Shown: positions 31,045-51,669 of the stretch, one piece after another
Layout of the letters: the number at the start of each line of letters is the position of its first letter
Numbering within the stretch: position 1 is the stretch's first letter
Position numbers and translations under genes: made by a program
Notes under the pieces: generated by a model
What the model saw: the letters and a program-made list of their open reading frames with translations, nothing else
Told to the model about the DNA's origin: nothing
Databases searched by the model: none
Assembly (NCBI GenBank): GCA_002869145.1
Contig: PKTM01000002.1
Location: 1 to 64,000 of the forward strand
Source of the DNA: Denitrovibrio sp.
GTDB lineage: Bacteria; Chrysiogenota; Deferribacteres; Deferribacterales; Geovibrionaceae
Length of the DNA stretch: 64,000 nt
Direction: 5' to 3'

Positions 31045-31094
31045 AAAAAAACTTCTTGCATTTTTGAACCATTCTAAATAATAATCAACTTACC

Positions 31095-31250
31095 AACTGC
31101 TAGTATGATGCGGGAAACCGGTGCAAATCCGGTGCTGTCGCGCAACTGTAAGCCGGACGAAAACCCATTTATGTCACTGCCCTAAGGCGGGAAGGCGGGT
31201 TAGTAGAATGAAGGCAAGCCAGGATACCTTATTCATGCTTCTAAGCAGTA
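31095..31250 (+). promoter_or_regulatory. Cobalamin riboswitch
   Basis: The conserved core is unmistakable: CGGGAAACCGGTGCAAATCC, then GCTGTCGCGCAACTGTAAGC and the B12 box AGCCAGGATACC (31218-31229). ACTGCT (31096-31101) can pair with AGCAGT (31244-31249) as a closing stem. CCTTATTC (31227-31234) is complementary to GAATAAGG (31263-31270) and may be part of the expression platform, since it overlaps the B12 box. No T-run follows that stem, so translational control is possible. A weak promoter-like TTGCAT lies at 31056. It controls btuB and probably tonB. Confidence 0.95.
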
Positions 31251-44414: not shown

Positions 44415-46642
44415 GTGTATACGAAAGTTTCAATTACCCAGAAGTAACGTACCCTATAGCAAAAGAGATGGGGCTCACTGAAGGTGAGTTTGAGGGTGCG
44501 AAAAACCTTATCGGCAGAAACCCGAATTACATAGAGCTGGGCATCATATCTTCAATGTATTCCGAGCACTGCTCTTATAAATCCAGCAGAGTTCATCTTG
44601 CAAAGTTCCCCACAGAAGCACCTTGGGTTGTTCAGGGGCCGGGCGAGAATGCTGGTGTTATATCAGTAGACGACGAGGGGCTCTGTGTCTGCTTTAAAGT
44701 AGAATCACATAATCACCCTTCATTCATAGAGCCATTTCAAGGTGCTGCCACAGGAGTTGGCGGTATTTTAAGAGATGTTTTCACCATGGGGGCAAGACCA
44801 GTTGCTGCTATGAACTCTCTTCGCTTCGGCAGCCTTAAAAGTGCGAAAAACAGATATATTTTCGAAGGTGTTGTTGAGGGTATTTCCCACTACGGCAACT
44901 GCTTCGGAGTGCCGACAGTGGGTGGCGAGGTTTACTTTAATGACTGTTATAACGGAAACCCTCTGGTGAACGCATTTGCTCTGGGTGTTGTTCAAAAAGA
45001 CAGAATCTTTTTGGCCAAGGCAGAAGGTAAAGGCAACCCTGTGATATATGTCGGTGCCAAAACAGGTCGTGACGGCATTCATGGAGCCACAATGGCATCT
45101 GCTGAGTTTGACGAAAACAGCGAATCCAAACGTCCTAATGTTCAGATAGGCGATCCTTTTAAAGAGAAACTACTGCTTGAAGCGTGTCTTGAGCTTATGA
45201 AGACCGACTACATAGTGGGCATACAGGATATGGGTGCAGCGGGACTTACAAGCTCATCTTTCGAGATGGCTTCCAAGTCAGGCTCAGGCGTCAGGCTTGA
45301 CCTTGACAATGTACCAGTCCGTGAAAACAACATGACACCTTATGAAATAATGCTTTCAGAGACACAGGAGCGCATGCTCATGGTTGCAAAGAAAGGCTAT
45401 GAGGATAAGGTTAAAGAGATATTTGATAAATGGGATCTTGATGCCGTAGTTATAGGCGAGGTTACAGATGACGGTTACGTCAGACTAACTTGGGACGGCG
45501 AGGAAGTTGCCGCACTGGAAGCTGCGCCTTTGGCTGATGAGGCCCCTAAGTATAACAGACCATACAGCAGACCTGATTCTCAAGACCTGCTTCAGAAAAC
45601 TGTAAAGACAGAGTGCCCGGAAGATATTCAGGGAGTTCTGCTTCAGCTTCTTGCTAACCCGACCATCGCATCAAAAAGATGGGTTTGGGAGCAGTATGAC
45701 CATATGGTAAGGGTTGGGACAGTTCAGCTTCCGGGCTCGGATGCGGCTGTTATCAGGCTAAACGAATCAGATAAGGGTGTTGCCATCTCAAGTGACTGCA
45801 ACAGCAGATATTGCTATTTGAACCCATATGAGGGCGGTAAGGCTGCCATCGCAGAATCAGCCAGAAACGTGGCTGTATCAGGTGCAAGGCCAAGAGCGTT
45901 TACCAATTGTCTGAATTTCGGCAACACTGAAAAAGAAGCTATTATGTGGCAGTTTGCTACAGCTTTAGAGGGTATTTGTGAGGCGGCTAAAGCTCTTAAC
46001 ACACCAGTGGTAAGCGGAAACGTTTCTCTTTATAATGAAACAGAAGGAACTCCTATTCACCCAACACCGACTATAGTTATGGTTGGTGTGATAGACGATG
46101 TTACAAAGAGAATAGGGTCGTATTTTATAGATTCCAGCAGCACAGTTTATCTTTTAGGCGAGAACACAGGCCATGTCGGCGGTTCAGAGTACCTTGCTTC
46201 CATCCACGGAAAAGAGCTTGGAGATGCTCCGGCTGTTGACCTTGTACATGAGAAGGCTATTATAGAATTTATGTGCGAGGCGGCAGACCAAAGACTTGTA
46301 AATGCTGCCCACGATATCTCCGAAGGAGGGCTGGCTGTTGCGCTTGCTGAAATGACTTTCGGAGCCAAAGAGATAGGCGTAACTGTTAAACTGGAGAGCG
46401 AGCTTGCGGCTGATGCACTGCTTTTCGGAGAAAACCACGGAAGAGTTATTCTGGAGGTTTCTAATGTAAATGCTGCTGCAGTAGAAAAACTTGCAGAAAA
46501 GCACGAACTGCCTATATCAAGAATAGGTCGTACTTTAAGCGACAGGATAGAAATATCTGCTGACGGCAGAAAACTTATAGACATCAAAGTTAAAGATGCA
46601 GAGGATATATGGAAGAACAGCATTGGGAAAATAATGAAATGA
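44411..46642 (+). CDS. purL: Phosphoribosylformylglycinamidine synthase, PurL subunit (short type)
   Basis: A 743-residue ATP-dependent synthetase subunit, the usual length of the short PurL that works with PurS and PurQ. Motifs include [31 protein letters not shown] and the second half starting near [17 protein letters not shown]. It starts GTG 44411 inside purQ and its last codons overlap purF (ATGA). Confidence 0.96.
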
Positions 46643-48006
46643 CATTTGATAAATTTCACGAAGAATGCGGCGTGGCAGGCGTTTTCGCAAACGAAGATGC
46701 CGCAAACCTTGTTTACCTTTCACTTTATGCGCTTCAGCACAGAGGTCAGGAAGGAGCTGGTATAGCTGTCAGTAACAGATCAGAGATGAAATATGAAAAA
46801 GGTATGGGGCTGGTTGCAGATATCTTTTCTGAAGCAAAACTGGAAGGCCTTGCTGGTGATATTGCTATAGGTCACAACAGGTATTCCACTACCGGCATTT
46901 CAGAATTAGCCAACACTCAGCCTATTACTGTAACGATAAACGCAGGTCAGATATCTCTGGCTCACAATGGAAACATCGTTAATGCAGAAGAGATAAAGAA
47001 TGAACTGGTTAGACAGGGCGCAATATTTAATTCAAGCTCTGATTCAGAGGTGATAGTCCATCTTATAGCTAAAAGCAAAAAAGAGGATCTCGTTGAGTCC
47101 ATTATACACTCACTTCGCCAGTTGAATGGTGCTTTCTCCCTGCTTGTTATGACTAATGATAAGTTGATTGGTGTTCGTGACCCTATGGGGATGCGACCGC
47201 TGGTGCTCGGAAAGTTAAAGAACGGATATATCCTTACTTCTGAAAGCTGTGCGCTGGATCTTATTGAAGCTACTATGGTTCGCGAGATAGAGCCGGGCGA
47301 GATGGTTATTATTGATGAAAACGGTCTGGAATCCATCTTTCCTTTTGAAAAAACAGATCCTAAGCCCTGTGTTTTTGAGCATATTTATTTTGCAAGACCT
47401 GACTCATTCATTTTTGGCGACAGTGTTTATGATGTCAGAAAAAGGATGGGTAAAAAACTAGCAGAAGAGGACAATATAGAGGCGGATGTTGTTATTCCTG
47501 TGCCGGATTCAGGAGTTGTGGCGACACTTGGCTATTACGAAGAGAGCGGAATACCATTTCAGATGGGGCTTATGAGAAATCACTATGTTGGCAGAACCTT
47601 TATCGAGCCAAGCCAGTCTATCAGACACTTCGGGGTAAAGATAAAGCTGAACCCTGTGCGCAGTGTTATTGAAGGTAAACGGGTTGTTGTGGTGGATGAT
47701 TCAATCGTAAGAGGAACCACCAGCCGTAAGATTGTTAAGATGCTTCGTGAAGCTGGCGCAAAAGAGGTGCATATGAGAATAAGCAGTCCTCCTACAACCT
47801 TTCCATGCTTTTACGGAATAGACACACCCACAAGAAAAGAACTAATTGCATCCACGCATAATGTAGAGGAGATCAGGAAATACATAACAGCAGATAGCCT
47901 GAGTTATCTCAGTCTCGAAGGACTTATGGAGTGTGTGAACGGCGGGGGTTACTGCCATGCATGCTTTTCTGGTCAGTACCCAACCTTACACCCTGATGGC
48001 GATTGA
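46639..48006 (+). CDS. purF: Amidophosphoribosyltransferase
   Basis: A 455-residue enzyme for the first step of purine synthesis. The N-terminal Ntn glutaminase has the nucleophile Cys 10 in EECGVAGVF after a nine-residue propeptide. The PRPP-binding loop is [18 protein letters not shown] near the C-terminus. FPCFYGID and C-terminal Cys residues suit the Fe-S-containing PurF type. ATG 46639 (ATGA overlap with purL) gives the expected short propeptide; ATG 46609 with AGAGG is an alternative. Confidence 0.95.
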
Positions 48007-48019
48007 TAAGGAGAAGTTA

Positions 48020-48361
48020 ATGAGTGAAGCTATTATCATAAGAATGTTCGGCAGCAGCATGGAGTTTGTTTCTGGCTGAAGCCCTTCTAATTTTCCCGCA
48101 GGCTGCGGGGAGAAGAAAGACCCATATGAAGAGCTATCATATAATCTGGATACATTGCTGCGGAAAGAGTTTGGAAAAGATGGTGTGGATTTTAAGTACA
48201 TAGACGTTTCTTCACCAGAGATACTGGAATATGTAAATGAAGTCACTACAATAGTAGAGGGAAGGTTGCCTTTCCCGTTTGTTTCAATGTCATCTAAACC
48301 TTTGTGCTGGGGTGTTCTGGAAGCAGATGAAATTATGGAGAAGATAAAAGAGAGTCTCTAA
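48020..48361 (+). CDS. Thioredoxin-fold selenoprotein (in-frame UGA at residue 20)
   Basis: ATG 48020 has a strong AAGGAGAAG ribosome site 13 bp after purF. The frame meets TGA at 48077-48079 and then runs open to TAA 48361, giving 113 residues. The local context is MEFVSG-U-SPSNFPAGCG, with the Sec after strand 1 where thioredoxin-like proteins hold their active site. A cis-Pro-type segment follows (GRLPFPFVSMSSKP). A hairpin with a SelB-type loop starts 11 nt after the TGA. Homologous-looking sequence on both sides of the stop plus the hairpin argue for selenocysteine rather than a pseudogene. It is probably a redox protein; partner and substrate are unknown. The biosynthesis genes selA, selB and selD are not in the window. 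A standard gene caller would report only a fragment from 48155. Confidence 0.85.
48091..48113 (+). promoter_or_regulatory. SECIS-like element in the selenoprotein mRNA
   Basis: TTTTCCCGCA pairs with TGCGGGGAGA (10 bp including two G-U pairs) around a GGC loop, 11 nt after the UGA. GCAGG..CUGC is close to the apex of the E. coli fdhF SECIS (GCAGGUCUGC). An outer CTTCT/AGAAG pairing (48084-48088, 48111-48115) is an alternative base. Confidence 0.75.
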
Positions 48362-49637: not shown

Positions 49638-51539
49638 TTATTCGTAAAACTGAGCATATCTCTGATTTATCTCTATTCTCGCCTTCTGTTTAAGCTCATT
49701 AACATAGGACTGCATTGCTTGAGCTGACTTCACACCGTATAGATTGCTTTTGATCTGCTCTTTTTGCTGATCGGTAATCTCTGCAGTGTCTGGCGCAACT
49801 AAGTCTTTAACCTGAACAAGGAAGACCTTCCCGCCCACAGTGTATGAATCCTGAATGAATGTCTCAGGCTCTGACTTGAAGATATCCTCCATAAGTTTCT
49901 GGTTCATACCGAGTCCTTTTATAGGGTCAGTCCTTTTAAACTTCGGAGTAGTGGTGTATGTCTTGTTCAGCATTTCTGCAGCATCGTCCATAGTGGGAAG
50001 CTCGGCGGCTTCTTTAGCTTTTGCCTGAGCTTGCTCAAGGCTTTTTACCTGTATAAAGTCCGCGGTAACTTTCTCTTTAATATCTGAAAGCTCAGGTATG
50101 TACGAATCGTATTTCTCTGTCATCTCAAAGATCATTTGTGATTCATCAACCTCAATAACCTGTGAAAGTTCATACTTGTTCATTTGCATAAGCCTGGATG
50201 CTATGCTGCCCATGCCTTTAAGAGGAGCAACATTGCCTGCTGCTGTGAGCCCTTTTATTTCAATGGTTTTAATCTTATTTTCAGCTTTTTCATTATAAGC
50301 TGTAATGTTCGAAGTTGAGAGGATCGCCTTGTATGTGTCGAAGACATATGTTCTGAAAGATTAATTTGACTTCTGCTCAATAATTATATTCGCAATTTCG
50401 TCTTTTACTTCATCAAGTGTAGGTTTGGACTCCTGCTTATGCTCTTTGACTTTGATAATGTGAAAGCCGAATTGTGTTTTCACGACATCAGATATTTCAC
50501 CCACCTCTGTTTCAAAGGCTGCTTTCTCAAATTCTGGAACCATTTGGTCTTTTGTAAAAAATCCCAGATCACCACCGGTTTCAGCAGAACCATCTTCGGA
50601 GAATTTTTTTGCCATCTCTGCAAAATCAGCGCCGTTTTCTATTTGTTTTTTAATATCTTTGGCTTTCTGATATACGGCTGTAGCAGCTTTTTCATCATCC
50701 CAGTTGTCCACCGTAAGAAGAATGTGAGCTGCGTTGACCTGCTCAGGTTCAATGAAAGATTCTTTATTTCTTATAAAATAATTCTCTATTTCGCTTTCTG
50801 TTGCTTCTACATTTTCACTAAATGTTTCAGGGTTGAAAACAGCATATTTGAAGTCTGCTTTTTCTGGTACTCTGTAATTCTCTTTATATTCTTCATAGAA
50901 TGCAGTTACGGCTGTGTCAGTTACTTCCACATTAGAGACAAAGTCTTCAGAGTTGATTTCGAGAAATCTTATTGATGCCTGCATATTGTTATATGTGTAC
51001 TCTTTTTTAATCTCAAGATCACTTACAGCTACGCTATCGTTTATGAGTGCCTGCATTTTCTGGTATGTAAGGTTTTCGCGTACACTTTCTTCAAACGCCT
51101 GTGGAATAAGTCTGTTTCTGGCAAGCAGCTGTACATATCTTTCCTGATCGAAAAAACCATCTGTTTGGAAAGCCTGCATAGACTGGATGCTGGCTGAAAC
51201 CTCTGCATCTGATACTGGGATGCTAAGTCTTTTTGCTTCTATACGAAGGAGTGCTTCGTTAATAAGGCTTTCCATTACGTTTTTTTCAAGGGTATCACCT
51301 TGAAGAACTTCGTCGATATTGTTTCCGAACAGCTGTCTGAACTGCTCTCTTGTGTCATCTACTTTCTGACGAAAATCCTGATCAGTAATAATTATATCAT
51401 CTACCTTCGCTGCGTAAAGCTGCTCAGATGCCTTATCACCAACTCCCCAAACAAAGAATATGGTGCCTACAAAAGCTGCGATGATTAACCAAAGTGAAAA
51501 AGTGGTCAGTTTCTTTTTATTTCTCAAACTGGAGATCAT
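49638..51539 (-). pseudogene. ppiD: PpiD/SurA-like periplasmic chaperone gene broken by an in-frame TAA
   Basis: The frame from ATG 51539 encodes an N-terminal anchor (FSLWLIIAAFVGTIFFVWGV), a SurA_N-like helical region and a parvulin domain (QVNAAHILLTVDN ... GGDLGFFTKDQMVPEFEKAAF). It meets TAA at 50363-50361 (codon 393). The same frame continues without another stop to 49638 (next residues SFRTYVFDTYKAIL). Full length would be 633 positions, matching PpiD (~620-650), so one nonsense change is likely. The truncated product keeps the parvulin domain and may still work. The distal part has an ATG at 50213 but no proper ribosome site. Start: GAGG lies 9 nt before ATG 51539. Confidence 0.82.
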
Positions 51540-51564: not shown

Positions 51565-51669
51565 GGACCCGACAGGGTGACTCCGGCACACAAAATTTCT
51601 CACTACCGTTGCTTCCTTCCGGATCTGGCGGGGTTCGCGTGAAACTTGTTGCAGAGGCCCCGTCGGGCC
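51565..51669 (-). ncRNA. ffs: Signal recognition particle RNA (small bacterial type, 4.5S)
   Basis: The minus strand has the SRP hallmark GAACCCCGCCAGATCCGGAA followed by GGAAGCAAC, in the domain IV hairpin. Ends GGCCCGACGGGG and CCCTGTCGGGTCC pair to close a ~105-nt hairpin RNA. It lies between ppiD and tRNA-Ser. Confidence 0.95.

Follow-up and report, generated by a model that had tools for sequence, protein, structure and literature searches.

A probable selenoprotein encoded directly behind purF in Denitrovibrio, a remote relative of the DUF1462/YuzD family

Introduction

The selenoproteins of prokaryotes were brought together in a 2026 inventory of 119 families and subfamilies (PMC13188914), none of which is a DUF1462 entry. 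The uncharacterised DUF1462/YuzD family includes SA0798 of S. aureus (PDB 1xg8), which has been classified as thioredoxin-like (PMC3091736). Amidophosphoribosyltransferase (PurF) carries out the first committed step of purine synthesis, and the Fe-S class of this enzyme is the B. subtilis type (PMC7056826). A full-text literature search, which was not exhaustive, found no paper that connects selenoproteins with DUF1462 or with amidophosphoribosyltransferase. Here we describe a gene that lies immediately behind purF in Denitrovibrio sp. and very probably encodes a selenoprotein. It was found in a 64,000-nucleotide stretch of contig PKTM01000002.1 (assembly GCA_002869145.1), referred to as the window, and no model of NCBIfam (June 2026) matched its product, with current RefSeq annotation remaining outside the comparison.

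Results

Organization of the purF locus and the in-frame TGA

The features of the locus are as follows.

46639..48006, plus strand: purF, B. subtilis-type amidophosphoribosyltransferase (NCBIfam TIGR01134, 562.7 bits; invariant upstream neighbour)
48008..48013, plus strand: ribosome-binding site AAGGAG (sequence reading)
48020..48361, plus strand, stop included: predicted selenoprotein gene, 113 aa, selenocysteine (Sec) at position 20 (sequence reading; orthologues)
48077..48079, plus strand: in-frame TGA, predicted to be read as Sec (TGA at the same codon in every orthologue; Sec machinery in the genome)
48104..48106, plus strand: codon of Cys29 (GCG motif in all close orthologues; TGC/TGT in 19/19)

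The stop codon of purF occupies 48004-48006, and the gene starts with ATG at 48020, 6 nt beyond AAGGAG, in agreement with the strong ribosome site claimed in an earlier sequence-only reading of this DNA. Codon 20 is TGA, after which the frame stays open to the TAA at 48359-48361. The translation across the TGA, MSEAIIIRMFGSSMEFVSG-U-SPSNFPAGCGEKKD..., is the one given in that reading, which had also foreseen that automatic annotation would leave a 68-residue fragment; conventional ORF calling indeed returned only a 68-aa fragment starting at TTG. Gene callers can be expected to shorten genes of this selenoprotein family to fragments in the same way.

Elsewhere in the window, a gene for a PpiD/SurA-like peptidyl-prolyl isomerase (49638-51539, minus strand) is broken by an in-frame TAA at 50361-50363, which is either a nonsense mutation or a sequencing error; the corresponding gene in a Denitrovibrio metagenome-assembled genome (MAG) of the same genus is open over its whole length. 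Two RNA features were also recognized.

31073-31249, plus strand: cobalamin riboswitch (89 bits)
51567-51665, minus strand: small SRP RNA (69 bits)

Conservation of the TGA codon among orthologues

When 84,980 species genomes were scanned with the protein as query, six close relatives emerged, all from Deferribacteraceae, Denitrovibrio or Seleniivibrio. Within Deferribacterota, the gene was present in 19 of 51 genomes; these span 7 genera and 5 families and carry 20 orthologue loci, and the other orthologues were 46-67% identical to the window protein. Each of the 20 loci contained a single in-frame TGA, always at the same codon. No further genome with the gene appeared among 385 relatives from 319 genera, a tblastn search of plasmids with the protein as query gave chance matches only (those in Listeria fall in a glycerophosphotransferase), and viral contigs held no relative of the protein. 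In the frame following the TGA, orthologues differed mostly at third codon positions (differences of 54-75%, compared with 16-26% at second positions), and this frame is therefore translated and under selection at the protein level, in line with the continuous coding sequence noted in the sequence-only reading.

These results bear on whether the UGA is simply a true stop or a nonsense mutation, with the frame beyond it decaying or forming a separate short gene. TGA normally serves as a stop codon here, the 68-aa TTG fragment is what ORF calling reports, and the window has another in-frame nonsense codon, the TAA of the ppiD-like gene; nevertheless, the same TGA in all orthologues, the conservation of the protein on both sides of it, the conserved hairpin and the way in which presence of the gene tracks selA (both described below) leave this explanation scarcely credible. 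A plain nonsense mutation or pseudogene was rejected on the basis of the conserved TGA and the selection on the downstream frame.

Every close orthologue has Sec, and no close Cys orthologue was found. A Cys version behind purF was absent from the three complete genomes of the Sec-less sister genus, and the more distant Sec-less loci that were read showed no clear homologue. One genome (G023) encodes a diverged second Sec-type family protein with 24% identity (L033; G023:C2:132646-132975, minus strand), which has CTSGU in place of VSGU, lacks Cys29, carries its own hairpin after the TGA and does not adjoin purF; its C-xxx-U arrangement resembles the CxSC of YuzD. The MAG UBA6793 has two purF-selenoprotein loci on different contigs (L007 and L011), perhaps because the MAG mixes two strains and not because the locus was duplicated.

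Selenocysteine machinery and co-occurrence with selA

The sequence-only reading had made the case depend on Sec genes in the genome. The host genome (2.88 Mb, 99.4% complete) contains selA (504 bits), selB (275 bits), selD (329 bits) and a tRNA-Sec with anticodon TCA (67 bits), so that the whole set was found. The selD gene, too, contains an in-frame TGA, close to the N-terminal end of its product (KAAG-U-AAK; frame starting at 1441 of its locus), and SelD is itself probably a selenoprotein. The formate dehydrogenase alpha-like matches in the genome contain no TGA; therefore, SelD and the purF-linked protein may be among the main Sec clients of this genome, whose other selenoproteins were outside the analysis.

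Across 51 genomes of the phylum, the gene and selA occurred together in 18, the gene alone in 1, selA alone in 2 and neither in 30 (Fisher 1.2e-10, or 1.0e-4 by genus; the genomes are related and the events are not independent). Of the three discordant cases, two are incomplete genomes, at 87-88%, and the third is a distant family; the single genome with the gene alone is 87% complete and has tRNA-Sec. In one genus of the same family, represented by genomes of 100% completeness, both the gene and selA were missing. Read-through of the UGA without selenium, by a near-cognate Trp tRNA or by a programmed mechanism, can be excluded only by experiment; it is nonetheless very improbable in view of the complete Sec machinery, the hairpin at SECIS distance and the absence of the gene from lineages without selA.

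A conserved SECIS-like hairpin downstream of the TGA

48094..48110, plus strand: SECIS-like hairpin with a core of 7 pairs, UCCCGCA-GGC-UGCGGGG; stem reaching 48091-48113 in the window (conservation, folding)

The minimum-energy stem in the window (48091-48113, -15.4 kcal/mol) starts 11 nt after the TGA, just where the sequence-only reading had put a hairpin, and its 7-pair core is conserved across the order. The core begins 14 nt after the TGA and has the consensus CCY-NCA-GGY-UGY-GGG with a GGY loop, and almost every orthologue is able to form it. The folding energy of the single window hairpin was not significant alone (z -1.4; 18 of 200 shuffles were as good); we regard the hairpin as real because it is conserved and not because of its energy. 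Over 18 distinct sequences, 93.7% of the cells of the core were paired, as against 39-56% for slid partners, and 12 cells were changed on both sides, compared with a shuffled mean of 3.6 (none of 500 shuffles reached 12). The both-side changes were located at two stem pairs, 18-34 and 22-30. Pair 18-34, the outermost, is CG, UA, UG or GU, is never broken, even though one of its bases is a third codon position and the other the first base of a variable codon; pair 22-30 is GC or AU. An inner stem pair had a U mismatch in 6 of the 18 sequences, and two outer pairs were broken in one sequence. The codon of Gly30 was GGG in 18/19, compared with 20% GGG among the Gly codons in the reading frames of the neighbouring purF genes; codon 27 ended in A throughout. 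Judged by these codon patterns, synonymous codon choice in the hairpin region is constrained. A hairpin just after the UGA whose apical loop contains G/U, as demanded of a SECIS, is thus present; binding by SelB remains putative, without binding data.

Relationship to DUF1462/YuzD

The Pfam DUF1462 profile (PF07315) matched 16 of 20 members of the family at E up to 1, with a best value of 1.3e-5. Against the curated cut-off of 25 bits, one orthologue scored above (25.9), the window protein reached 18 bits and most members stayed below. Run over the 385 relatives, the same profile retrieved only the purF-linked family and four weak matches. The structure 1xg8 was the top match by profile search (E 1e-3) and ranked first among PDB entries by Foldseek (E 7e-4, TM 0.54), and the structure model of the window protein has a thioredoxin-like fold (pLDDT 79.8), in line with the fold proposed from the sequence alone; residues 15-32, the loop with Sec20 and Cys29, were poorly determined. 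A profile-profile comparison with YuzD gave E 4e-8, as a single comparison and not a database-wide value. The YuzD set consisted of sequences from Priestia, Listeria and Staphylococcus together with a B. subtilis YuzD sequence entered by hand, which scored 153 bits against DUF1462.

The CxSC motif did not vary among the four YuzD sequences used. When Sec was entered as Cys, it aligned with the second Cys of CxSC; when Sec was masked, it fell one residue past that Cys. CxSC after strand 1, as expected of a plain member, is therefore absent, the first Cys being missing and the second being Sec or having Sec adjacent, and the protein is accordingly a remote Sec-containing branch of DUF1462/YuzD and not a plain member. 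This assignment replaces the sequence-only reading's statement that no named family could be given. Its call for Cys homologues at the Sec position was answered in part: remote DUF1462/YuzD proteins have CxSC within one residue of it, but in the absence of a close Cys orthologue, the pairing of Sec with Cys rests on these remote members.

Genomic context of purF

The PurF protein has the propeptide, the catalytic Cys and the motifs CVFE, FPCF and CHACF expected of the [4Fe-4S] type, with a few variants of these motifs among the relatives. In 19/19 loci examined, from five families, purF was directly upstream of the selenoprotein gene with a gap of 2-15 nt, while the downstream genes differed, and the two genes probably form one operon. 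In Priestia and Staphylococcus, YuzD adjoins a NifU-family gene and is near an Fe-S assembly accessory gene. The settings of purF and YuzD both point to Fe-S or thiol redox biology. Sec-less relatives keep an Fe-S-type purF without the selenoprotein gene, so that the gene is dispensable there; a general requirement of Fe-S-type PurF for the gene was rejected, since the Sec-less genus has a PurF of this type but not the gene.

The protein may instead be a selenoprotein of general redox function, such as a reductase partner or a factor that deals with peroxide or metalloids, having no connection to PurF and merely using purF as a convenient constitutive operon. The Sec-less relatives fit this explanation, coexpression alone can account for the conserved position, and the Firmicutes relatives do not adjoin purF, whereas the persistence of purF adjacency in every locus across five families, while the genes downstream change, speaks against it. 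We give this explanation a chance only a little short of even.

Discussion

We are highly confident that the gene encodes a selenoprotein with Sec at codon 20, although actual insertion of Sec is inferred and no experiment supports it. This adds a well-supported selenoprotein family and provides a Sec form of the DUF1462/YuzD family, which is uncharacterised. The product would be a protein of ~12.5 kDa with a thioredoxin-like fold, in which UGA codon 20 would be decoded by SelB and tRNA-Sec, aided by the downstream hairpin. Sec20 is predicted to lie in the loop that connects strand 1 with helix 1, the site of the redox Cys in thioredoxin-like proteins, and may form a selenenylsulphide with Cys29; this redox chemistry, too, is inferred.

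As a selenol/thiol redox protein, it might serve PurF or the PurF cluster. The most likely job is maintenance of PurF thiols/disulphides or of its Fe-S cluster, inferred because the gene is immediately behind purF and the Firmicutes relatives are beside Nfu/Fe-S assembly genes, and it is proposed tentatively, at about even confidence or somewhat below. The stronger proposal, that this family, which has so far been seen in Deferribacterales only, is a dedicated partner of PurF, acting as a selenol switch or a cluster-repair factor and coupling selenium and redox state to purine synthesis at its first committed step, is possible but falls short of an even prospect. The link to PurF is an inference from genomic context only. 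If it is true, selenium would have a part in protecting or controlling purine synthesis, of which there was no record in the literature searched; the Sec-less clade that retains purF offers a natural comparison.

Among known systems, the UXX-star proteins (NCBIfam NF041212 and NF041211) are, like the protein described here, small thioredoxin-fold selenoproteins, glutaredoxin-like (seleno)proteins by name. However, only the window protein matched these models, at E 0.13-0.14 and with 12 bits where the cut-offs are 66 and 100, and assignment to UXX-star was rejected as resting on a noise-level match.

The hairpin shares with the fdhF-type SECIS of E. coli its place in the coding sequence just after the UGA and its apical GGU/GGC, and to this extent the likeness to fdhF drawn in the sequence-only reading stands. 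It differs in that 22 nt separate the UGA from the start of the apical loop, a distance about 3 nt greater than in fdhF, and in the lack of a conserved bulged U; a U mismatch is found only in variants with TCA at codon 27.

With DUF1462/YuzD, the protein has in common the thioredoxin-like fold, a similar length, homology from helix 1 to the C-terminus and a redox motif located after strand 1 and before helix 1. It differs from that family in having Sec instead of CxSC (register within one residue), about 7-10 more residues with a second conserved Cys (U-x8-C), and purF as its neighbour, where YuzD has nfu.
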